A stretch of DNA of 64,000 bases from Candidatus Blastococcus massiliensis AP3. Its GTDB lineage: Bacteria; Actinomycetota; Actinomycetes; Mycobacteriales; Geodermatophilaceae. This document shows positions 39,815-53,763 of the stretch, in pieces. The stretch lies in NCBI RefSeq assembly GCF_000582785.1, contig NZ_HG931173.1, positions 495,282 through 559,281 on the forward strand, read 5' to 3'. The number at the start of each line of letters is the position of its first letter. Within the stretch, counting starts at the first letter, position 1. The translations under genes and the position numbers were made by a program. The notes beneath the pieces are model-generated. The model saw nothing but the letters and a program-made list of their open reading frames with translations. It made no database searches and was not told the origin of the DNA.

Positions 39815-40051
39815 GATGGGCGGCTCTCCTGTCTTCCAGTGCCGCCTACCGAGTTAGCTGACGGATTCGGGCTGGAAGACGCCCTACCTGCGGCCGGCAG
39901 TTCGGCGCGCAGGATTCACCCCAGTACTGCGATGGGTCCCCGGTCCCGGACGGTCGCCCATCCTGGGTTCGGCGGCGCCCGGACGGGCCTCCATGTGCGG
40001 AGGACGACTGCCGAACCGGGCTTGGCCAACATAGGTCCGTGACCGTTCCGT

Positions 40052-43660: not shown

Positions 43661-46600
43661 GTGATGACGCTGCACAAGCTCACCGCGGGGGACGGATACA
43701 CGTATCTGACCCGCCAGGTTGCTGCGCACGACGCCACGACCCGCGGGTTCGACAACCTGGGCGACTACTACAGCGAGAAGGGCGAGGCTCCGGGCCTCTG
43801 GATGGGACGCGGGCTTGCCACCGTGCCTGATTATCCGGTCGGTGACAGGGTCACCGAGGCCCAGATGGTCGCGCTGTTCGGGGAGGGGCGGCACCCGAAC
43901 GCCGATCAGATCGAGCGCGACGCGCAGCTGGCCGGCAGGGACCCCCAGCAAGTCGATCGGGCGAGCCGCCTGGGCGCGCCCTACCGCATCCACGAGCAGG
44001 CCAACGCGTTCCACCGCCGCTCGGCCGGGGCGTTCCGCGACCACAACACCGCGCTCGGCCTGCCCGCCGACACTCCCGTGGCGGCCGAGGAACGAGCCCG
44101 CATCCGCACCGAGCTGGCGTCGACGATGTTCGTCGAGACCTACGGGCGTCCGCCGGCCGACGCCCGCGAACTCTCCGGTCATCTGGCCCGCATCTCCCGG
44201 CAGGCGACCACCGCGGTCGCCGGGTACGACCTGACATTCAGCCCGGTCAAGAGCGTCTCCACGCTGTGGGCGATCGCCCCGCCAGAGGTCGCAGCCGTCA
44301 TCGAGCAGGCGCACGCCGACGCGGTGGCAGACGCCCTGACCTGGTTGGAGGACCACGCCGCCTACACCCGCACAGGCCGCAACGGAGTGGCGCAGGTGGA
44401 GGTACGCGGGCTGATCGCGGCGGCGTTCACCCACCGCGACTCACGCGCCGGCGACCCGGATCTGCACACCCACGTGGCCGTCAGCAACAAGGTGCAGACT
44501 CGCGACGGGCGGTGGCTGGCTTTGGACGGTCGACTGCTCTACAAGAACAACGTCACAGCCTCCGAGCGGTACAACACCCGCCTGCAGGCCCTGCTCACCG
44601 AGCGGCTCGGCGTCTGCTTCGCCGACCGGCCCGGTGCGGATCCGAACAAGCGGCCGGTGCGAGAAATCGTCGGCGTCGACGGTGAGCTCCCCCGCCTCTG
44701 GTCGTCGCGGCGGGCCTCGATCGCTAACCGCCGCGCGGTGCTGTCGGCACAGTTCCAGGCCGACCACGGGCGACCGGCGACGCCGAAAGAGGCCGTATTC
44801 CTGGCGCAGCGGGCCAACCTCGAGACCCGGCAGCGCAAGCACCAGCCCCGCTCCTACGCCGAGCAGCGCGCCGCCTGGCGCAACGAGGCGCTGGCGGTGC
44901 TGGGCGGGGAGACCGGCCTGAGCGACTACCTCCGCGGTGCACTCAGCCCCCGCCGCGGACCCCAGGCGAAGCGCCCGACGCGTAGATGGGTCGACCAGAC
45001 CGCCGAGCACGTGCTCTCGACGGTGCAGAGCTCGCGCGCGACCTGGCAGGTGAACAACGTGCGCGCCGAGGCCGAGCGGCAGGCCCGCGCCGCCGCGATC
45101 CGGCTGACCGACCTCGACCGAGCCATCGACGCCGTCGTCGACAGGGCGCTGTCCCTGTCCACGCCGTTGGGCAGCCGCGAACCGGTGACCGAGCCCGCGG
45201 CGCTGCGCCGCTCGGACGGCAGCTCCGTCTACACCGTGGCCGGCTCGACGCTGTACACCTCGACCACGATCCTCGCCGCAGAGCGGGCCATCCTCGCCGC
45301 GGCCGGACGCCGCGACGGACGGGTGGTGCCGGCCGCGACCGTCGACGTCGCGCTGCTGGAAGCCACCGCCAACCAGGTCGAGCTCAATCCCGGCCAGGTG
45401 CAGCTCGTCCGCGAGCTGGCCACCTCCGGCGCCCGTGTGCAACTGGCACTGGCCCCGGCAGGCACCGGCAAGACCACCGCCCTTCGCGCGCTCGCTGCGG
45501 CGTGGCGGGCCGACGGCGGGAACGTGGTCGGCCTTGCTCCCTCGGCAGCTGCGGCGGCGGTGCTGGGTGAGCAAGTCGGCGGCGACACCGACACCCTCGC
45601 CAAGCTGATCCACGCACTGGCTACCGGCAACGCCGTCCCGCCCTGGTTCGAGCGCATCGGCCCGGACAGCCTCGTGGTCATCGACGAAGCCGGCATGGCC
45701 AGCACTCCCGACCTGGCCCGGGCGATCGCGTTCGTCAACGAGGCAGGCGGGTCGATCCGGCTGATCGGTGACGACCAGCAGCTGGCCGCGATCGGCGCCG
45801 GCGGAGTGCTGCGCGACATCGCCGTCACCCACGGTGCCGTCACCCTCTCGCAGGTCCTGCGCTTCACGGACCCCGACACCGGCGCCCCCGACCACGCCGA
45901 AGGCGCCGCGTCCCTGGCACTACGCGACGGTGACCCGGCCGCCCTCGCCTACTACATCGACCATGGACGGGTACACGTCGGCGACCTGGCCACGGCCACC
46001 GACGACGCCTACACCGCCTGGTCGACCGACCGAGCCGCCGGCCGCGACGCCATCATGCTGGCGCCCACCCGCGAGCTGGTCGCCGAACTGAACAGCCGCG
46101 CCCAACGTGACCGCCTCGCCCTGCAGGACGGCCCGGCCGGATCCCAGGTCACCCTCGCCGACTCGTCGCAAGCCTCCGCCGGCGATGCGGTCATCACCCG
46201 CCGCAACGAGCGCACCATTGCCATCAGCGCCACCGACTGGGTCAAGAACGGCGACCGGTTCACGGTCACCGACGTCCGCGACACCGGCGCCCTCGACGTC
46301 GTCCACCAGCGCACCGGACGGCGCGTCACCCTGCCTGCCGACTACGTCACCGACCACGTGAGCCTCGGCTACGCCACCACCGTGCACGGCGCACAAGGCC
46401 TCACCGCCGACACCTGCTACACCGTCGCCACCGGCGAGGAGTCCCGCCAGCTGCTCTACGTCGCCCTGACCCGAGGCCGGCACGCCAACCACCTCTTCCT
46501 CACCACCGCCGGCGATGGCGACCCGCACAGCGTGATCACCCGCGACGCGCTGCTGCCGCCCACCGCCGTCGACGTCTTGACTCGCGTGCTGGCTCGCGAC

Positions 46601-49270
46601 GGCGCCCCGACCTCGGCCACCAGCCAGGCTCGCGAACTGACCGATCCCGCCGCTCTGCTCGCTTGCGCCGCAGATCGGTACTACGACTCGCTCAATACCG
46701 CCGCGAAGGACCGCCTCGGGCGGAAGGCGCTCGAAGCCATCGACGCCGCCGCCGACGCTGCGATACCGGGCCTGACGACGCAGGCGGCCTACCCCGTCCT
46801 GCGCGCACACCTGGCGCTGTGCGCCGTCTCCGGTCGTGACCCCTCCGACGTCCTCCGGCAGGCCCTGGCCTCGGATCGACGTCTGGACGACGCCCGCGAT
46901 GTGGCCGCGGTCCTGGACTGGCGTATCGACCCCACCGGGCGACACTCACCCGCGACCGGCCCCCTGCCGTGGCTGCCTGGCCTTCCAAAGACGCTCGGCG
47001 ACGACCTCGAGTGGGGCCCCTACCTCGCCGACTCCGCCGACCAGGTCAGCTCACCGGCCGTCGATGTCGCCGCCCGTGCACGCGCCTGGACCCCCACCAG
47101 CGCTCCCGCGTGGGCGCTTCCGCTCATCGACCGCGATCCCCAGCTAGTCGCCGATCTCGCCGTCTGGCGCATCGCCCACGGCGTTGACGACGCCGACCGC
47201 CGTCGCACCGGCCCGGCGGTGCCGCGCGCCACTGACGCCCGCGCCCAGCGGGCGCTTGACGACCGCGCCACGCGGCTGCTCGGCGACGGGCGCGCGCTCA
47301 CCGCGCGCTGGGCGCCGCTCGTCGACAGCATCGACCCACGCATCGCCGGCGACCCCTACTGGCCGGTCCTCGCCGAGCGGCTCGCCGCCGCCGACCGCGC
47401 CGGCATCGACATCACCGCGCTCACCCGGGGCGTCGCCGCCGAACGTCCCCTGCCGGACGAGCAGCCCGCCGCCGCGCTGTGGTGGCGACTGTGCGGGCAC
47501 CTCTCCCCTGCCGCGATGACCGCCACCGACTGCTCCGTCTCCGAGGCGCTGCGCCCGGACTGGATCCCGGTTCTGGCCGACGTCGTCGGCCCCGCAGCCG
47601 CCGAGCGGGTGGTCGCCGACCCAGCCTGGCCCGCGCTGGTCGCCGCCGTCACCTCTGCCGGCGACGCCGGCTGGCAGCCCGACCAGGTGCTGTCCACAGC
47701 ACATGACCTGCTGCCCGCCGGTCATCCCGACGACGACCAACTGCGCCCGGACGAGCTGGCCACCGCCCTGGTGTGGCGCGTCGGCGTGCTCATCGACCCG
47801 GCATCCGCCGCACGCCCTCACGCGCCGACGCCGCCGGCCGACCTCGACCAGCTGCCCTCTGCAGATGGAGTTGCCGACGACGACTGGCTGGCCAGTCTTG
47901 TCGAACCCGACGACATCGAACTGCTCCACGAGGAGCTCGACGGCGACGACCCAGCCACTGCCGAGCATCCCGTCTCGACAGAACTCAACGATCGAACTGT
48001 CGACGCCAGTCGCCCACCCGCAGCCGACAGGGCGGACGAAGAGGGCATCGGATTTGGCAGGGAGCGCCTCCTGCAGCTCAACCATCAAGCAGCCGACTTC
48101 TTCACCGCCCGCTACCGCGGTTCCTGGGCACCGGCCTACCTCACCGACCGGCTCGGCACCGATCTGTCGGGAGACGACCGGTTCACCGTCGGCTACGCAC
48201 CCGATCGCTGGACCGCACTGACCAGCCACCTGCGCCGCCTCGGCGCCACCGACGCCGAGATCGTCGCCGCCGGCCTGGGTAGCTACGCCTCCACCGGACG
48301 GGTCATCGACCGCTTCCGCGACCGGCTCGTCTTCGCCATCCGCGACGGCGACGAGGTCCACGGCTGGATCGGCCGCCGCAACCCCGACCACGACCAGGAC
48401 GGGGACCGCGCCGTCCCCAAGTACCTCAACACCGCTGAGACCGAGCTGTTCACCAAGGGCCACAAGCTGTACGGCCTGACCGAGGGCGCAGCGGCGCTAA
48501 CCGCCGGCGCCATTCCTGTCCTGGTTGAGGGCCCCTTCGACGCGCTGGCAGTCACCCTGGCCGGCGACAGCGACTACGTCGGCATCGCCCCACTGGGCAC
48601 CGCCTTCACAGACGCGCAGGCCGAGGCGCTACGCGCATTTCTCGGCGACGGAAAGCCTGGCGTCATCGTCGCCACAGACGCCGACCGGGCCGGACAGCAG
48701 GCCGCACAGCGCATCTTCTGGCAGCTCGCCGCCCGTGGCGACGATCCCCGCTCCCTCGACATCCCGACCGGCAAGGACCCCGCCGAGCTGCTGCAGACGA
48801 CCGGCGCCACCGCTCTGCGTCAGGCCCTCGCGGCCTCCCCCAGCCTGGCCAGCGCGCTCATCGACGGCCACATCGACGCCTACGCCGACCGGCTGGACAC
48901 CGTCGAAGGCCAGGTGCACGCCGTCCGTCGCGCCGCCGAGGTCATCGCCGTCGTTCCGTCCACCAGTTGGCCGGCGCACCTCACCCACGTGGTGGCCCGC
49001 ACCGGCATCGCGCCCGACATCGCGCTGTCAGAAGTCTTCGACGCAGCCCGGGGTCGGACGAAGGATGTTCACGCGCCGGCGCGCACAGCGCTGCGCGGCG
49101 GAACGCCCACACCTTCTACTGACCCGGGGACGGAGCTCTCCACCTCTGTGACATCTGCAGCGGAGCTAGGGCGAGGGACGCTGACCGACAGCCAGCAGGC
49201 GGCCCGGCGTGCTGCTGCCGCAGCACGCCGTTCGCGCGTCTCAGCCCCGCCGAGGCCACCCCGACATTAG
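43661..49270 (+). CDS. MobF relaxase-helicase-primase fusion (TraA-like)
   Basis: 1869 aa; GTG 43661 or ATG 43664. Residues 1-330 are a TrwC/TraI-type relaxase: early Tyr residues (GDGYTYLTRQV, GDYYSEKG), AGYDLTFSPVKSVSTLW, and the metal site DPDLHTHVAVSN near 268. About 570-960 form a RecD-like helicase: APAGTGKTTALRAL, LVVIDEAGMAS, LIGDDQQLAAIG, VHGAQGLTADTCYTV. A low-complexity bridge leads to a DnaG-like primase part: GRERLLQLNHQAADFF near 1465, then Toprim with VLVEGPFDALAVTLA near 1620 and VIVATDADRAGQQAA near 1668. It nicks at oriT, unwinds, and could prime complementary strand synthesis. The usual DnaG zinc finger is missing. Confidence 0.93.
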   Translation: MMTLHKLTAGDGYTYLTRQVAAHDATTRGFDNLGDYYSEKGEAPGLWMGRGLATVPDYPVGDRVTEAQMVALFGEGRHPNADQIERDAQLAGRDPQQVDRASRLGAPYRIHEQANAFHRRSAGAFRDHNTALGLPADTPVAAEERARIRTELASTMFVETYGRPPADARELSGHLARISRQATTAVAGYDLTFSPVKSVSTLWAIAPPEVAAVIEQAHADAVADALTWLEDHAAYTRTGRNGVAQVEVRGLIAAAFTHRDSRAGDPDLHTHVAVSNKVQTRDGRWLALDGRLLYKNNVTASERYNTRLQALLTERLGVCFADRPGADPNKRPVREIVGVDGELPRLWSSRRASIANRRAVLSAQFQADHGRPATPKEAVFLAQRANLETRQRKHQPRSYAEQRAAWRNEALAVLGGETGLSDYLRGALSPRRGPQAKRPTRRWVDQTAEHVLSTVQSSRATWQVNNVRAEAERQARAAAIRLTDLDRAIDAVVDRALSLSTPLGSREPVTEPAALRRSDGSSVYTVAGSTLYTSTTILAAERAILAAAGRRDGRVVPAATVDVALLEATANQVELNPGQVQLVRELATSGARVQLALAPAGTGKTTALRALAAAWRADGGNVVGLAPSAAAAAVLGEQVGGDTDTLAKLIHALATGNAVPPWFERIGPDSLVVIDEAGMASTPDLARAIAFVNEAGGSIRLIGDDQQLAAIGAGGVLRDIAVTHGAVTLSQVLRFTDPDTGAPDHAEGAASLALRDGDPAALAYYIDHGRVHVGDLATATDDAYTAWSTDRAAGRDAIMLAPTRELVAELNSRAQRDRLALQDGPAGSQVTLADSSQASAGDAVITRRNERTIAISATDWVKNGDRFTVTDVRDTGALDVVHQRTGRRVTLPADYVTDHVSLGYATTVHGAQGLTADTCYTVATGEESRQLLYVALTRGRHANHLFLTTAGDGDPHSVITRDALLPPTAVDVLTRVLARDGAPTSATSQARELTDPAALLACAADRYYDSLNTAAKDRLGRKALEAIDAAADAAIPGLTTQAAYPVLRAHLALCAVSGRDPSDVLRQALASDRRLDDARDVAAVLDWRIDPTGRHSPATGPLPWLPGLPKTLGDDLEWGPYLADSADQVSSPAVDVAARARAWTPTSAPAWALPLIDRDPQLVADLAVWRIAHGVDDADRRRTGPAVPRATDARAQRALDDRATRLLGDGRALTARWAPLVDSIDPRIAGDPYWPVLAERLAAADRAGIDITALTRGVAAERPLPDEQPAAALWWRLCGHLSPAAMTATDCSVSEALRPDWIPVLADVVGPAAAERVVADPAWPALVAAVTSAGDAGWQPDQVLSTAHDLLPAGHPDDDQLRPDELATALVWRVGVLIDPASAARPHAPTPPADLDQLPSADGVADDDWLASLVEPDDIELLHEELDGDDPATAEHPVSTELNDRTVDASRPPAADRADEEGIGFGRERLLQLNHQAADFFTARYRGSWAPAYLTDRLGTDLSGDDRFTVGYAPDRWTALTSHLRRLGATDAEIVAAGLGSYASTGRVIDRFRDRLVFAIRDGDEVHGWIGRRNPDHDQDGDRAVPKYLNTAETELFTKGHKLYGLTEGAAALTAGAIPVLVEGPFDALAVTLAGDSDYVGIAPLGTAFTDAQAEALRAFLGDGKPGVIVATDADRAGQQAAQRIFWQLAARGDDPRSLDIPTGKDPAELLQTTGATALRQALAASPSLASALIDGHIDAYADRLDTVEGQVHAVRRAAEVIAVVPSTSWPAHLTHVVARTGIAPDIALSEVFDAARGRTKDVHAPARTALRGGTPTPSTDPGTELSTSVTSAAELGRGTLTDSQQAARRAAAAARRSRVSAPPRPPRH

Positions 49271-49380: not shown

Positions 49381-49965
49381 ATGAGGTTCCTGCGCCGTCG
49401 TCCTCACGGCCGCCCTGCTCCGGAGCCGATCCCCGACGACGTCCCGGTCGAGGTTGATCCCGCCCGCCCGTGGGAGGTGCTCAGCTTGGTCAACGAGTGG
49501 GTCCGCCATGCAGAGGCCAAGGCGGGCACGATTCTCGCGGCGGCCGGCGTCGTGGCTGGCGTGCTCTACAGCTTGCTCGACAAGCAATCCCAGCCGCCGT
49601 GGACCTTGACTGTTCCGGCCGCAGCCTGCGGGCTACTGGCAGCTCTGGCCGGATTCATGTCGATCATCGCGCTGTGGCCTCAGCTGCGGGCACGGGAGGC
49701 GCCGACGAGCCTGTTGTATTTCGATCACATCGCGCGGGCTTACAACACCCCGGAGGCGTACGGGCGAGCCTTGCGGGGATTGGTCACCTCCGGCGAAACC
49801 GAGTTGCAGCAGGTGGCTCAGCAGGTGTGGGTCAACGCAACGGTCGCTCGACGCAAGTACCTCTGGGCTGGCCGCGCTCTCGTCTTACTCATCGCATCGA
49901 TCGTCGCCTGCAGCTGGACAGGGACATATCTTGCTCTCAATTCGATTGGACTGATCGGTGGATAG
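49381..49965 (+). CDS. Pycsar-type two-TM effector (PycTM, DUF5706-like)
   Basis: 194 aa. The hydrophilic front is followed by the diagnostic NEWVRHAEAKAGTILAAAGV, the start of helix 1 in DUF5706/PycTM proteins. Two adjacent membrane helices (about 55-70 and 80-100, GLLAALAGFMSIIALWP) follow, then a helical cytoplasmic part (YFDHIARAYNTPEAYGRALR) and a last membrane helix (ALVLLIASIVACSWTG). In Pycsar defence the effector senses cCMP or cUMP and damages the inner membrane, aborting infection. The cyclase gene overlaps its end by 8 bases. No strong ribosome site precedes the ATG. Confidence 0.8.
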   Translation: MRFLRRRPHGRPAPEPIPDDVPVEVDPARPWEVLSLVNEWVRHAEAKAGTILAAAGVVAGVLYSLLDKQSQPPWTLTVPAAACGLLAALAGFMSIIALWPQLRAREAPTSLLYFDHIARAYNTPEAYGRALRGLVTSGETELQQVAQQVWVNATVARRKYLWAGRALVLLIASIVACSWTGTYLALNSIGLIGG

Positions 49966-50683
49966 CAACTACAAGACCTACAGCTACACCAACTCGTTCA
50001 ACCGACTGGACCAGTACCTCGATGCACCGGCAGGCAACTACGAGGAAACCGACTCCCTCCCGAGTCGGGACAAGCTGACGTACGGCAACGGCTACTACGC
50101 CAATTGCGCGGCAATGTTCGTCGATCTCCGTGATTCATCGAGCCTGCCGGCTAGCTATAAGAGACCCGTCCTGGCCAAGATTTATCGATCGTTCATCTCT
50201 GAGGTCGTCGCAATCATGAACAGCGACCTCGATGCGCGAGAAATCAACATCGTTGGAGACTGCGTCTGGGGGGTCTTCGATACGACCTTGAAGACCGACG
50301 TCGACGACCTCTTCTCAAGGGCGGCCGAAGTCAATTCGATGATGAAGGTGCTGCGCTACAAGATGGAGAAGAAGGATTACAAGACTCCAGTCAAGGCGGG
50401 CATCGGGCTCTCATACGGCCGCGCGCTCATGATCAAGGCCGGCTACAACGGCAGCGGCATCTCCGATGTCGTCTACATGGGGGACGTGGTCAACCAGGCA
50501 GCCAAGCTGGCGGCCCAAGGCTCCAAGGGCTGGAACCAGCCCATTTACGCCGATGGCGTCTTCTACCAGAACCTTAACGAGTACAACCAGGGCTTGCTGA
50601 AGCAGATCACCTGGGGCGGCCCCTACTCGGGATGGGTCGTGAATATCGCGATGGAAAACTGGTACACCGAGAACTGCAAGTAG
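49958..50683 (+). CDS. Pycsar-type class III pyrimidine nucleotide cyclase (PycC)
   Basis: 241 aa from GTG 49958. Class III cyclase fold: AAMFVDLRDSSSL with metal Asp at about 56, NIVGDCVWGVFD with the second Asp at about 101, then VKAGIGLSYGRALMIKAGYN and YMGDVVNQAAKLAAQG. The catalytic part stands alone without a sensor domain, as in PycC, which makes cCMP or cUMP upon phage infection. It shows more A/T-rich codons (aag, tac, att) than nearby genes, suggesting separate origin. Base specificity (C versus U, or a plain adenylate cyclase) cannot be told from sequence alone. Confidence 0.82.
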   Translation: MDSNYKTYSYTNSFNRLDQYLDAPAGNYEETDSLPSRDKLTYGNGYYANCAAMFVDLRDSSSLPASYKRPVLAKIYRSFISEVVAIMNSDLDAREINIVGDCVWGVFDTTLKTDVDDLFSRAAEVNSMMKVLRYKMEKKDYKTPVKAGIGLSYGRALMIKAGYNGSGISDVVYMGDVVNQAAKLAAQGSKGWNQPIYADGVFYQNLNEYNQGLLKQITWGGPYSGWVVNIAMENWYTENCK

Positions 50684-50934: not shown

Positions 50935-51627
50935 CTACGGCCGGCTGGTCAGCAGGTTGGCCACCGTGCTGGTCGCCTGAAGGTGCTGGCCCAGTTGGGC
51001 ATCGAGACGGGCGGCGAGGCCGAGCATGTCGGCCAGCCGACCAGCGACGTCGGTGGACAGCAGGGGTTCGTGGTGGGCCACGCGGTTGCGCAGTTCGTGC
51101 AGGCGGCCCACCGGGCCATCGACATGAAGGGCACGGTCGGTGCCCGGCGGGAAGGCGCGGTGCAGCGCGGGCACCCACAGCGTCTTCTCGTGCGCCGCGG
51201 AGCTGAGGTAGCGCCAGAAGCCGAACATGAGCTCGGCGACGATCTTCCCTGGCGGGGCGCCCGTACCGCCCGCGTTGGCGATGGCGTGGCGCAAGCTTTC
51301 CCGCGGCCTTTCGTTGACGTCGACGCGGCGTCGTCCGCGCCTGCGATAGACCGGAGCGAAGACGGCGTCTGCAGCCAGCGCCCAGTGCGGAGGCCCGGGC
51401 CAGTGAGCGGACAGTGCACCGTCGTAGGCGTTGCGCAGCCCGACCTCCACGTGCGCCAGGTCGTGCATCAGCGCGGCGCTGAGCTGGGCGTTCCACTCAT
51501 ACAGGGCCAGCGCCCGGTCTCGGTCCACGCCTGTGGCGGCAAGGTAGACCGAGAATCGCGGGCTGCTCAGCCAGGCCTCCACCCAGGGACCGGCTGGTGG
51601 GAGGCCCGGTGGCGTCGGCATTGTCAT
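50935..51627 (-). CDS. Abi_2/HEPN abortive-infection protein
   Basis: 230 aa from ATG 51627 (ATG 51621 also possible). All helical: VEAWLSSPRFSVYLAATGVD, a central ELMFGFWRYLSSAAHEKTLW (the FW-x-L segment usual in Abi_2), and LHELRNRVAHHEPLL near residue 185, the HEPN RNxxxH-type ribonuclease motif. Abi_2 proteins (AbiD/AbiF) stop growth or RNA metabolism on phage infection. A nested hairpin lies 33 bases upstream in its likely leader. Immediately beside the Pycsar-like pair on the opposite strand. The 250-base gap 50684-50934 shows no gene. Confidence 0.82.
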   Translation of the reverse strand: MTMPTPPGLPPAGPWVEAWLSSPRFSVYLAATGVDRDRALALYEWNAQLSAALMHDLAHVEVGLRNAYDGALSAHWPGPPHWALAADAVFAPVYRRRGRRRVDVNERPRESLRHAIANAGGTGAPPGKIVAELMFGFWRYLSSAAHEKTLWVPALHRAFPPGTDRALHVDGPVGRLHELRNRVAHHEPLLSTDVAGRLADMLGLAARLDAQLGQHLQATSTVANLLTSRP

Positions 51628-51654
51628 CCCGCCCCATCCTGGCGTAGAGTGGCC

Positions 51655-51710
51655 GTGAAAGCCCCGGTGGACCGCTGACCTTTGGTCATGTCGCCGGGGC
51701 TACGTCTTTT
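51655..51710 (-). ncRNA. nested-hairpin RNA upstream of the Abi gene (abiF-RNA-like candidate)
   Basis: Outer arms AGCCCCGG (51660-51667) and CCGGGGCT (51694-51701) pair perfectly and enclose a second hairpin TGACC-TTT-GGTCA (51676-51688). On the minus strand the RNA precedes the Abi_2-like gene. Structured RNAs (abiF motif) are known upstream of Abi_2-family genes. It could also serve simply as a terminator for the secretion operon. Confidence 0.5.
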
Positions 51711-51739
51711 CCTGGGCTCCGTCCGCCCTCGCCCTCGCG

Positions 51740-52246
51740 TTAAGCCGTTGGCGCCTGCGCTGATCGTCCAGGGGAGGCGTCGAGGAAGGCGGTGTAGCGG
51801 CTTTCGGCGGGCCAGTCCTGGTGCCGGCCGGTGCGGCAGGTGCTCTCCCCGAGTCGTTGGGCCATGCGGTCACAGAACATCGGGAAGGCGTAGCGGTTCC
51901 ACTCCTCCATCAGCTGAGGACCCGCGGCGTTCTCTGCTTCCCACCGCAGCACCGCCAGAACGGGCAGCTCCCGGGCGATGTGGGCGTGATGGGACCAGCA
52001 GGCCGGGACCATCTGCGCGGGCCGCCACGCGTACTCGTGATTGATCCATGCGACGACGTCGCGACACCAACTCCAGACCGCTGCGCTGAGCTCGCCGCTG
52101 CAGCTGGCCGGCTCCCAGGGGCGCTCGAGGTCAGCCACGCCGCCAGCCTCTGCCACTCCCCCGCGAATACTTTGACGCGCGCTTTCCAGGAGCTCCAGCG
52201 CACGCAGCAACGCGAAGGGTGGCGCCGGGAACGGCAGGACGATCAC
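51740..52246 (-). CDS. DUF4913-like hypothetical protein, end of the secretion operon
   Basis: 168 aa from GTG 52246, overlapping the coupling-protein stop as GTGA. Tryptophan-rich: SAAVWSWCRDVVAWINHEYAW, then VPACWSHHAHIARELPVLA, with RWEAENAAG. The W-x-CW-H arrangement recalls DUF4913 proteins that accompany actinobacterial transfer genes, where the acidic/Trp surface may bind a partner. No enzymatic motif. As last gene of the T4SS transcript it is followed by the nested hairpin at 51660-51701. Confidence 0.7.
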   Translation of the reverse strand: MIVLPFPAPPFALLRALELLESARQSIRGGVAEAGGVADLERPWEPASCSGELSAAVWSWCRDVVAWINHEYAWRPAQMVPACWSHHAHIARELPVLAVLRWEAENAAGPQLMEEWNRYAFPMFCDRMAQRLGESTCRTGRHQDWPAESRYTAFLDASPGRSAQAPTA

Positions 52247-53763
52247 CAGGACCGCGTCCCGGAGTGCGGTGCGGCCGGCGGGTCGGCCGGATCGACGTGT
52301 CGGCTCGGGACGAGCCGGTGGTCGCGGGCGTAGGCCAGCGCAGCAGCCGTGCGCTGCTCGACGTCGACATCGTCGGCACGGGCACCGTCGACCCGGGCGC
52401 GGGCGGCGTCGAGCTCGGTGGCGAGCTGCTGACCGGCCTTGCCGTCGAGGCAGCGCCTCAGCCGGGCGATGATCGGCGGCGCGGTGCCTGCGACGACGAG
52501 AGCGTGCCGCTCAGGGATGCGACGGATGTCGCCGGGGCGCAGCACCCGCACGTCTTCACCCGAGCGGGACGTGCCGATGCCGCCGGGCCCGTCGGTGACG
52601 GTCCGCCGGCTGATCCGCACATCGTCGAGCAGGTCGGACAGTTCCCGGTAGAAGTGGACGTCCTTGCCGCCGCCGAAGATGACGAGGTTGTTGGTGAGCC
52701 CGAACAGCGAGCGGGCCTCGTCCTCGCCGTAGGAGACGACCATCTGTTTCCAGGTCTGGGCGGCGTAGATGAACGACAGACCGAGCGCGCGCTCGTTCGC
52801 CATCCGCACCCGCAAGGTCGGCAGCGGCGTGGTGGACGGCAGTTCGTCGAGACACGCCAGGAAGGACGGCGTCAGCCGCCCGTGCGGCGAGGTGGTGGCG
52901 ACGTGCAGGGCGGTGTCGAGGACGTGCTCGGCGACCGCGGTCATCAGCGGTGCCGCCGAGGCGTAGGGGTCCTCCCGGCCGAGTAGGTACACCGTTCCCT
53001 GCCGGGCGATCAGGTCGGCCAGATCGGTCGTCGGCCGCCCGCGCGAAGGCACACAGCGAGCCCTGATGTCCGGCTGGAAGAACAGCGCCATCGCTTGCTG
53101 GACCGTGGTCACCGTGTTGCCAACGGTGTCCGGGCTGCCGTGTAGGGCGCCGATCAGCAGCCCGTCCCAGAACCGAGCTGCGTGCGGATGCTGCTGCAGG
53201 ATCTCAGCGGGCTGCTCGGCGGCGACCGGGTTGGCGACCCACTCCAGGACGTGCTCCAGGGTGCGGCCGGTGAGTGCCGCCGCGTGCAGGAATCCCTGCA
53301 GAACCTTGGCTGTCTCCGCGGCGTAGAACCGGGCGGCGTTGTCCTGCCGGCCTCCGGTGACCGCGCCGGCGACGGTGCCGGCGGCGAACGCCTTGGCTCG
53401 TCGCTCGGCGATCCGAGGATCGACGCAGCCGGCGACCGGATCCCACACCAGCTCCGGCAGCCCCGGGGCAGCGCCGAAAGGATCCAGGACCGCGACCGGG
53501 CGCGACGGCTCGTGGGGGCCAGAAGGCCGCTGCCGCCGCCCGGCGGTCAGCAGCAGGTCGTCGACCTTGGTCAGCGTCGCCAGCCCGGCGCCGCGGTGGG
53601 CCAGGAGGGCGGGAGCGAGCAGGTCAAGGGTCTTGCCGGAACCCTGCTCGCCGTAGACGCCGGTGGTGCGGTCGAACCGGCACCACAGTTCCACCCCGTG
53701 CGGCTGGACGGAGCGGCCCAGCCGCCAGCCGACGTCGTTCGGGTCGAACCCTGATCTGAGCAT
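52243..53763 (-). CDS. type IV coupling protein ATPase (VirD4/TraG-like), without membrane part
   Basis: 506 aa, ATG 53763 with AAGGGGAG upstream. Walker A is in YGEQGSGKTLDLLAPAL near residue 40 and Walker B in FLACLDELPSTTPLP near 310, with an arginine/TraM-recognition part LIFAAQTWKQ-like (SFIYAAQTWKQMV) after it. It couples the relaxase-DNA complex to the secretion channel. The P-loop is only 40 residues from the start, so the N-terminal membrane domain of ordinary VirD4 is absent and may be supplied by the gene at 55396. Confidence 0.9.
   Translation of the reverse strand: MLRSGFDPNDVGWRLGRSVQPHGVELWCRFDRTTGVYGEQGSGKTLDLLAPALLAHRGAGLATLTKVDDLLLTAGRRQRPSGPHEPSRPVAVLDPFGAAPGLPELVWDPVAGCVDPRIAERRAKAFAAGTVAGAVTGGRQDNAARFYAAETAKVLQGFLHAAALTGRTLEHVLEWVANPVAAEQPAEILQQHPHAARFWDGLLIGALHGSPDTVGNTVTTVQQAMALFFQPDIRARCVPSRGRPTTDLADLIARQGTVYLLGREDPYASAAPLMTAVAEHVLDTALHVATTSPHGRLTPSFLACLDELPSTTPLPTLRVRMANERALGLSFIYAAQTWKQMVVSYGEDEARSLFGLTNNLVIFGGGKDVHFYRELSDLLDDVRISRRTVTDGPGGIGTSRSGEDVRVLRPGDIRRIPERHALVVAGTAPPIIARLRRCLDGKAGQQLATELDAARARVDGARADDVDVEQRTAAALAYARDHRLVPSRHVDPADPPAAPHSGTRSW

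Follow-up and report, generated by a model that had tools for sequence, protein, structure and literature searches.

A covarying RNA upstream of an AbiF-like HEPN gene of Blastococcus, a candidate RNA antitoxin on a mobile element

The gene investigated here encodes a 230-aa HEPN protein on the minus strand of the window (the whole 64-kb stretch of Blastococcus DNA that was analysed), where it lies together with a small RNA hairpin in the cargo slot of a mobile element. The features of the region, in window coordinates, are the following:

43661 to 49270, plus strand: TrwC-type relaxase/helicase of the element (Pfam profile)
49381 to 49965, plus strand: PycTM, a Pycsar effector, neighbouring separate cargo (profile, 1.4e-26)
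49958 to 50683, plus strand: PycC, a Pycsar cyclase, neighbouring separate cargo (profile, 3.3e-96)
50935 to 51627, minus strand: Abi_2-like HEPN gene, putative toxin, 230 aa (ORF, profile and fold evidence)
51070 to 51090, minus strand: HEPN RNase motif RNRVAHH, residues 180-186 (sequence; invariance of R180, N181 and H185)
51657 to 51702, minus strand: structured RNA, here called A-type, candidate RNA antitoxin, UAGCCCCGGCGACAUGACCAAAGGUCAGCGGUCCACCGGGGCUUUC (covariation; match to positions 1-46 of 46 of model R1, whose training set includes this row)
51660 to 51667, minus strand: 3' strand of P1, CCGGGGCU, pairing with 51694-51701
51670 to 51672, minus strand: 3' strand of P2, GUC (fold, landmark register)
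51676 to 51680, minus strand: 3' strand of P3, GGUCA, followed by the conserved strand G-n-GRYC (landmark register)
51684 to 51688, minus strand: 5' strand of P3, UGACC, pairing with 51676-51680 (fold, landmark register)
51690 to 51692, minus strand: 5' strand of P2, GAC, pairing with 51670-51672 (fold, landmark register)
51694 to 51701, minus strand: 5' strand of P1, AGCCCCGG, pairing with 51660-51667 (sequence)
51740 to 52246, minus strand: 168-aa gene of the element backbone, after whose end the cargo slot starts (element comparison)
52243 to 53763, minus strand: TraG/TraD-like coupling protein of the element (Pfam profile)

The original prediction had placed the protein in the Abi_2 HEPN group on account of its RNRVAHH motif and FW segment (residues 137-138), and this assignment was upheld. 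Its match to Pfam Abi_2 (PF07751) falls just under the cut-off of 25.6 bits (24.9 bits, E 2.9e-5), and Abi_2 is matched at E ≤0.01 by 57 of the 63 aligned proteins (best 6.7e-10); among the PADLOC profiles, PD-T4-5 and AbiD match it at E 1.5e-5 and E 0.003, respectively. In 89 distinct relatives (105 past the length filter, minus repeats), R180, N181 and H185 of the motif (RNxxxH, R-polar-xxx-H) are invariant, and R24, E61, R65-N66, W82, W138 and W151 are invariant or nearly so; the loss of HEPN residues that had been named as grounds for doubt was not observed. An AlphaFold2 model of the protein (pLDDT 96.0, pTM 0.88) has as its best Foldseek match in the PDB the structure 8vz6, PbAbiF with ncRNA (E 2.2e-3, probability 1.00, TMq 0.53). 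In the VIA comparison the model and 8vz6 align over 198 residues with Z 12.1 and rmsd 2.9, the next match being Csm6 (Z 6.5), values to be read with the tool's warning that helical bundles readily score high, up to a Z of ~13. Taken alone, this predicted fold match is no proof of RNA binding. By sequence profile 8vz6 is reached at E 0.081 only, and an actinobacterial AbiF-type protein found behind an RF03085 RNA (L111) scores 23 bits with the protein profile A4, with which the near-full-length subfamily members in 112 family genomes score 195-300 bits. Judged from sequence and model, the protein represents a distinct Abi_2 subfamily with the PbAbiF fold, distant from the AbiF-type protein of L111. 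Its catalytic motif and its fold suggest that it is likely to act as an RNase and to arrest growth.

The Pycsar-like pair that had been read beside the gene is borne out by both profile matches, PycC and PycTM standing side by side with overlapping reading frames. The further suggestion of a small defence island between relaxase and secretion genes fared unevenly: the cargo does lie between the TrwC relaxase and the TraG-type gene, but the notion of an island is weak, as the Pycsar pair adjoins the HEPN gene in only one (L008) of the ten near relatives with enough flanking sequence beyond it (L001-L009 and L013), and Pycsar and Abi as one conserved island was set aside. In that one locus, from B. 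aggregatus (met again as L244), the pair is 98% identical to window positions 49381-50683 and occupies the same element slot. The 168-aa, TraG-like and 432-aa genes of the backbone are common to many Geodermatophilaceae loci. Relatives of the HEPN gene, all below 60% identity, were also found on 390 of 72,556 plasmid records, on 3 of 50,697 phage-collection records and at 12 viral-contig loci.

At the RNA itself, the nested hairpin described upstream of the HEPN gene and in its orientation was confirmed: P1 is an exact 8-bp stem enclosing the exact 5-bp stem P3, with the 3-bp P2 in between, so that a GC-rich outer stem leads into an internal loop with conserved bases at its edges, and this into a short inner hairpin. 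The distance from P1 to the HEPN start codon is 32 nt, and the spacer between RNA and gene is 29 nt. By pattern alone this arrangement is not beyond chance, since the GC-rich 64-kb window has ~8 separate places, this one included, at which an exact stem of 8 bp encloses an exact stem of 5 bp (15 overlapping instances). The fold of the minus strand over 96 nt has a z of -1.05, with 31 of 200 shuffles folding equally well; over 126 nt z is -1.41, and for the plus strand of the hairpin stretch it is -2.48. Thermodynamic stability was dropped as evidence for the RNA because of the weak z-score and because similar nested stems are common in the window. The RNA is taken as real because of the comparison of loci (covariation and position), not because of the single sequence. 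At 51703-51712 of the window, and in many A and B loci, P1 is preceded by a purine-rich GGAAAAGA-like stretch, perhaps the 5' tail of the RNA or promoter-proximal sequence.

In a pattern search of the homologue loci, 68 places were found, with 39 distinct RNAs among them; the count of places includes redundant loci from single genomes. On rechecking, 67 of the 68 were found to lie 33-125 nt before a homologue on the same strand; the remaining one (L103) precedes a broken toxin piece which the profile missed and which was recorded separately. With the register of the 39 RNAs set by landmarks, not by energy, paired positions are seen to change together: in P1 one pair is G-C in 32 and A-U in 7 and another G-C in 37 and A-U in 2, in P2 a pair is C-G in 35 and U-A in 4, and in P3 one pair is A-U in 22, G-C in 10 and C-G in 4, and the next C-G in 33, U-A in 2 and A-U in 3. 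Against this, the middle pair of P2 is A-C in 6 of the 39, and the loop-side pair of P3 is unpaired in 7. In the wider alignment A6 (65 sequences, three antisense rows being excluded by a tighter cut-off and L064 not having passed), two-sided changes occur in 9 of 16 pairs (78 cells), and covariation is 0.220, as compared to 0.104 (sd 0.007) in shuffled and at most 0.052 in slid versions, in what is a covariance-model alignment and leans toward its own structure. The count of further pair types was not above that of the shuffles in A6, nor above the control in the 29-sequence seed; covariation in the seed was 0.073, against 0.044 in shuffled and 0.055 in the best slid version. Taken together, the aligned sequences indicate that the helices carry compensatory changes and that this is a structured RNA; the absence of covariation among homologous loci, raised beforehand as a possible outcome, was not what was found.

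Conservation extends to single bases. G9, G11, A12, U15, C26, A27, G30 and C33 are invariant across the 39 distinct RNAs and are located at the end of P1, in P2, in the outer pairs of P3 and at the unpaired G30; among the wider 65 RNAs some of them vary, e.g. GA to AG in G170. Single positions aside, the freely variable part inside the hairpin is the P3 loop of 2-9 nt. Compared with nine near relatives, the window is 89-98% identical in the RNA, 78-92% in the toxin gene and 62-90% in the 29-nt spacer.

The original prediction had suggested one of the known structured abiF RNAs, and this was not borne out. RF03085, the abiF RNA and to our knowledge the only Rfam family for RNA partners of Abi_2 HEPN toxins, gave no match in the 64-kb window at the gathering score, no match at the locus even at E ≤10, as the proposed covariance-model search with the abiF motif revealed, and no match at 17 homologue loci at the gathering score; RF03085 RNAs are present in 3 of 148 class genomes. 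The only Rfam match of the window at the gathering score is a c-di-AMP riboswitch (ydaO/yuaA) at 39828-39984 on the minus strand. Both the A-type RNA and RF03085 have an outer stem, an asymmetric internal loop and an inner hairpin within ~40 nt upstream of an Abi_2 gene, but the AAGCCUCUC..GAUGCUCAAAU core of RF03085 is missing here and A-type RNAs have GAyrU..CAkn-GRYC instead. The missing matches and the different core rule out an identity with the known abiF RNA and point to a different family.

The link between this RNA and the HEPN gene was then followed through several samples. A search of 100 sources (774 kb) with the covariance model R1, which had been trained on 29 sequences, gave 64 matches at E ≤0.01. 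Of these, 63 lie upstream of a homologue (some of them broken) on the same strand, and the remaining one is located at such a place but in antisense orientation. Loci outside the training set are matched as well (e.g. L053, L054, L058, L062, L063, L065, L066, L068, L069, L071, L072, L074, L079 and L080). When 112 family genomes were searched twice and separately, R2 found the RNA at 31 places and A4 found 24 toxins of near-full length, which cover ≥180 of the 214 profile positions without a stop. All of these toxins (24/24) have the RNA on their own strand, 66-102 nt ahead of the aligned part of the protein. A toxin adjoins 28 of the 31 RNA places, 24 times intact and four times broken (G370, G029, G023, G007); three RNAs have no toxin (G008 at 1692297, and two in G385), and three toxin remnants have no RNA (G031, G357, G387).

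A class sample of 296 genomes, in which the RNA was searched by R1 under stricter filters, contained the protein in 37 genomes (E ≤1e-8) and an R1 match in 16 (E ≤0.01). At E <0.001, 11 of 14 RNA places precede a toxin hit (one of them broken); the other three comprise two orphans in G265 and one place in G119 (L190; no toxin, 66-nt span) which was taken as a chance match. Five weaker R1 matches of E 0.0036-0.0078 (G270, G236, G263, G173, G127) were also taken as chance. Among 30 toxin loci taken from this sample (L152-L181), an A or B RNA was matched in 24 at E ≤0.01, and six have no RNA match at this threshold (L161, L165, L170, L174, L180, L181). Finally, the best 80 of 310 tblastn-confirmed relatives were taken as homologue loci and searched by R1 (all, E ≤0.01), R2 (the remaining 29, E ≤0.05) and R3 (all, E <1e-8); an A or B RNA is located upstream in 73. 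In the seven with no RNA detected upstream, the gene is truncated in three (L048, L055, L076), weak hairpins are present in two (L051, L078), none is evident in L077, and the last is L070. The claim that the structured RNA belongs to the HEPN gene was supported, in 24/24 near-full-length family toxins and 73/80 homologue loci. In L025 the RNA occupies the expected position of the toxin's N-terminal third and the homologue starts at residue 74, so that the gene looks truncated behind an intact RNA. Among 274 genomes of the class of a Rubrivivax MAG, R2 at E ≤0.001 (stricter filters) matched only the known place of that MAG and one place in G705 (L269; terminator-like, no toxin), which was taken as chance; from these two places the RNA looks rare outside Actinomycetota.

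Could the hairpin simply terminate the upstream type IV secretion operon and be unrelated to the HEPN gene? It does lie between the 168-aa gene on the tra side and the HEPN gene, and has a GC-rich stem of a pattern that is not rare in the window. In G010, G015 and G001, however, which carry the element without the toxin, backbone identity (84-93%) breaks off at 51745-51760, before the RNA is reached, and neither RNA nor toxin is present; in L248 (G012) element homology extends to 51679, half of the RNA being gone along with the toxin. The three toxin-less copies first named are also devoid of the RNA, which argues that it is not the terminator of the transfer operon. Relatives from other families have RNA and toxin with no tra neighbours in the 4 kb examined, apart from a distant, 39%-identical relaxase stretch in L014, and the invariant bases of the 39 RNAs include some that play no part in termination. 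A terminator-only role, the outcome that had been named as contradicting the proposed unit, can on these grounds be given almost no weight. As the sequences have it, the mobile unit is the RNA plus the toxin.

A second explanation is that the RNA is a cis-acting leader only, an attenuator or a protein-binding site in the 5' UTR through which the HEPN protein would repress its own gene, with no free antitoxin RNA. The constant placement of the RNA 5' of the gene and in its orientation in all near-full-length family toxins is compatible with this, and so is the short U-rich UUUC that follows the P1 stem, which could also serve as a terminator or leader; in C. difficile, the RNA RCd22 also terminates transcription in cis (PMC12373285). 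On the other hand, the U-run after P1 differs among groups, two tandem A-type RNAs stand 65-66 nt apart before single toxin genes in G170 (L201/L203 and L198/L205, on contig C2), the A-type RNA of L070 (918-961) is situated 3' of the toxin gene and not 5', and orphan RNAs with no toxin homologue found within ~1.5 kb (L132, L216 and L219, each at 1501-1545, and L183 and L197) also occur, of which L132, L183 and L197 keep the fold, although locus decay could explain orphans. The orphan and tandem RNAs, together with the RNAs that persist next to some broken toxins, speak for an RNA that acts freely and against a mere leader, though they are no proof, and we regard the leader-only explanation as unlikely. 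As side observations, G170 also carries an RF03085 match elsewhere, and L132 shares its context with L216/L219, which are one region with two RNAs; an opposite-strand ORF common to these contexts appears PIN-domain-like by eye.

Two architectures of the RNA were distinguished. The B-type RNA has an extra 5' hairpin, CCGGGUC[stem]GAAUACCGG, which is present in Cryobacterium, Mycobacterium, Brevibacterium, Arthrobacter and others, and in several of these a diverged A-like hairpin follows. In 12 sequences of the B hairpin, two-sided changes were seen in 8 of 14 pairs, and covariation was 0.455 vs. 0.186; the B hairpin of L042 had no Rfam match up to E 1. Within the 80 loci an A RNA is found in 60, a B RNA in 20 and both in 7, and A-type RNAs also occur in a betaproteobacterial group (L067, L079, L080). 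When 67 distinct protein rows were placed in a midpoint-rooted tree, the 20 rows with B or AB all grouped in a single clade (support 99/97). This agrees with the B hairpin having been gained once and with an RNA architecture that follows the clade of the protein. Weak R3 matches (E ≥0.006) at A-type places were attributed to the A hairpin, which has the CCGG outline as well. Other hairpins were noticed by eye: upstream of distant Abi_2 genes on viral contigs (L140-L143, L138) stands a double hairpin of another kind, CACCAGGU...ACCUGGUG and then a second, which R2 and R3 did not match, and in L161 and L165 another hairpin and then a terminator-like stem precede toxin homologues. These loci, as well as L180 and L151, have a by-eye hairpin and no model match at the thresholds used and were not counted as RNA-bearing.

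The locus is probably a type III-like module in which a HEPN ribonuclease toxin resembling AbiF is paired with an RNA antitoxin of its own, and in Blastococcus it is cargo of an integrative conjugative element. A conserved structured RNA gene stands directly upstream of the putative toxin, its linkage to the toxin is near-constant, the putative toxin has the catalytic motif and a predicted PbAbiF-like fold, RNA and toxin are mobile as a unit, and the architecture of the RNA follows the clade of the toxin. With the near-constant linkage, the covariation, the catalytic motif and the fold to speak for it, the RNA-protein toxin-antitoxin unit first proposed is still the best model, and its workings may be pictured as follows. 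The 46-nt RNA would be transcribed as the cognate partner of the HEPN toxin, to which it would bind, by analogy with PbAbiF as a dimer, and would neutralise it by blocking the RNase site; by the same analogy, the conserved bases of the internal loop and its borders would point towards the HEPN site. Loss or titration of the RNA, e.g. upon phage takeover or loss of the element, would be the trigger that frees the toxin, which would then cut RNA and arrest growth, and so would contribute to phage defence, to maintenance of the element, or to both. Phage protection by abortive infection is suggested here by the protein family and the mobile location.

Experimental precedents exist for a module of this kind, which was described in 2025. 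AbiFCd of C. difficile is toxic and requires R202 and H207, and RCd22 binds AbiFCd and neutralises it in cis and in trans (PMC12373285); in PbAbiF, as a review relates (PMC12737573), one AbiFr is bound per monomer and single-stranded bulge bases inhibit the RNase. The precedent of RCd22 and AbiFCd applies by analogy, as no similarity between the present RNA and the abiF RNA could be detected. Like AbiF/AbiFr (8vz6; AbiFCd-RCd22), the Blastococcus pair combines a HEPN Abi_2 protein with RNxxxH, the (predicted) fold and a mobile-element location with a small structured RNA directly upstream on the same strand, and a double RNA motif is occasional in both; unlike it, the protein is of a distant subfamily and has 230 aa vs. 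~300, the core of the RNA is dissimilar to RF03085, and there is usually one RNA hairpin. In the type III systems ToxIN and kin, the RNA antitoxin gene lies 5' of the gene of an RNase toxin with the ToxN fold. The order of the genes is the same here and tandem RNAs occur in a few loci, whereas the toxin is a HEPN protein, repeats are the exception, and neutralisation by the RNA is the presumed step. PD-T4-5, an E. coli plasmid defence gene called a 'distant relative of AbiF/D' (PMC9519451), resembles the HEPN protein through the PADLOC profile match given above, a weak and distant one; it differs in that passages on it in that source mention no RNA partner.

AbiF-like HEPN proteins with RNA partners have been put forward as the ancestors of Cas13 (PMC12165695, PMC12737573), and this proposal is what would lend appeal to a further reading, in which the RNA is a sensor or guide that, on recognising a ligand or phage RNA, switches the HEPN nuclease on. 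The A-type RNA, however, has no spacer-like segment, its variable part being the short P3 loop and single positions, and we consider a guide function very unlikely.

The A and B RNAs were unrecognised by Rfam 15 where tested, and no description of them was found in the literature searched, Zilberzwige-Tal 2025 (Cell) and Weinberg 2017 aside; the covariance models of Zilberzwige-Tal 2025 may include the A-type RNA. PMC12373285 presents the AbiF family as largely of Bacillota and Pseudomonadota, and its main text contains no Actinomyc- or Actinobact- words. A distinct Abi_2 subfamily with a distinct RNA is likely, and likely extends the recently described RNA-guarded toxins to a large bacterial group. 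More speculatively, and with clearly less confidence, it is possible that this is an undescribed RNA antitoxin family, its core not recognisably homologous to abiF, which guards its own HEPN subfamily across Actinomycetota and beyond and whose architecture changes along with that of its toxin lineage; HEPN toxins of the line proposed to have led to Cas13 would then have swapped their RNA partner more than once, and orphan copies could protect their hosts from incoming modules as anti-addiction RNAs.

Experimental cases include AbiFCd of C. difficile and PbAbiF of Prevotellaceae. A second class of RNA, with covariation, conserved bases and two architectures, would offer an independent system in which to ask how an RNA restrains a HEPN RNase and how such a partner can change, which bears on the proposed step from an RNA antitoxin to the guide RNA of Cas13. 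In actinobacteria, plasmids and mobile elements, the models R1-R3 could serve to annotate many genes now called 'Abi family' or 'hypothetical' as RNA-guarded toxins.
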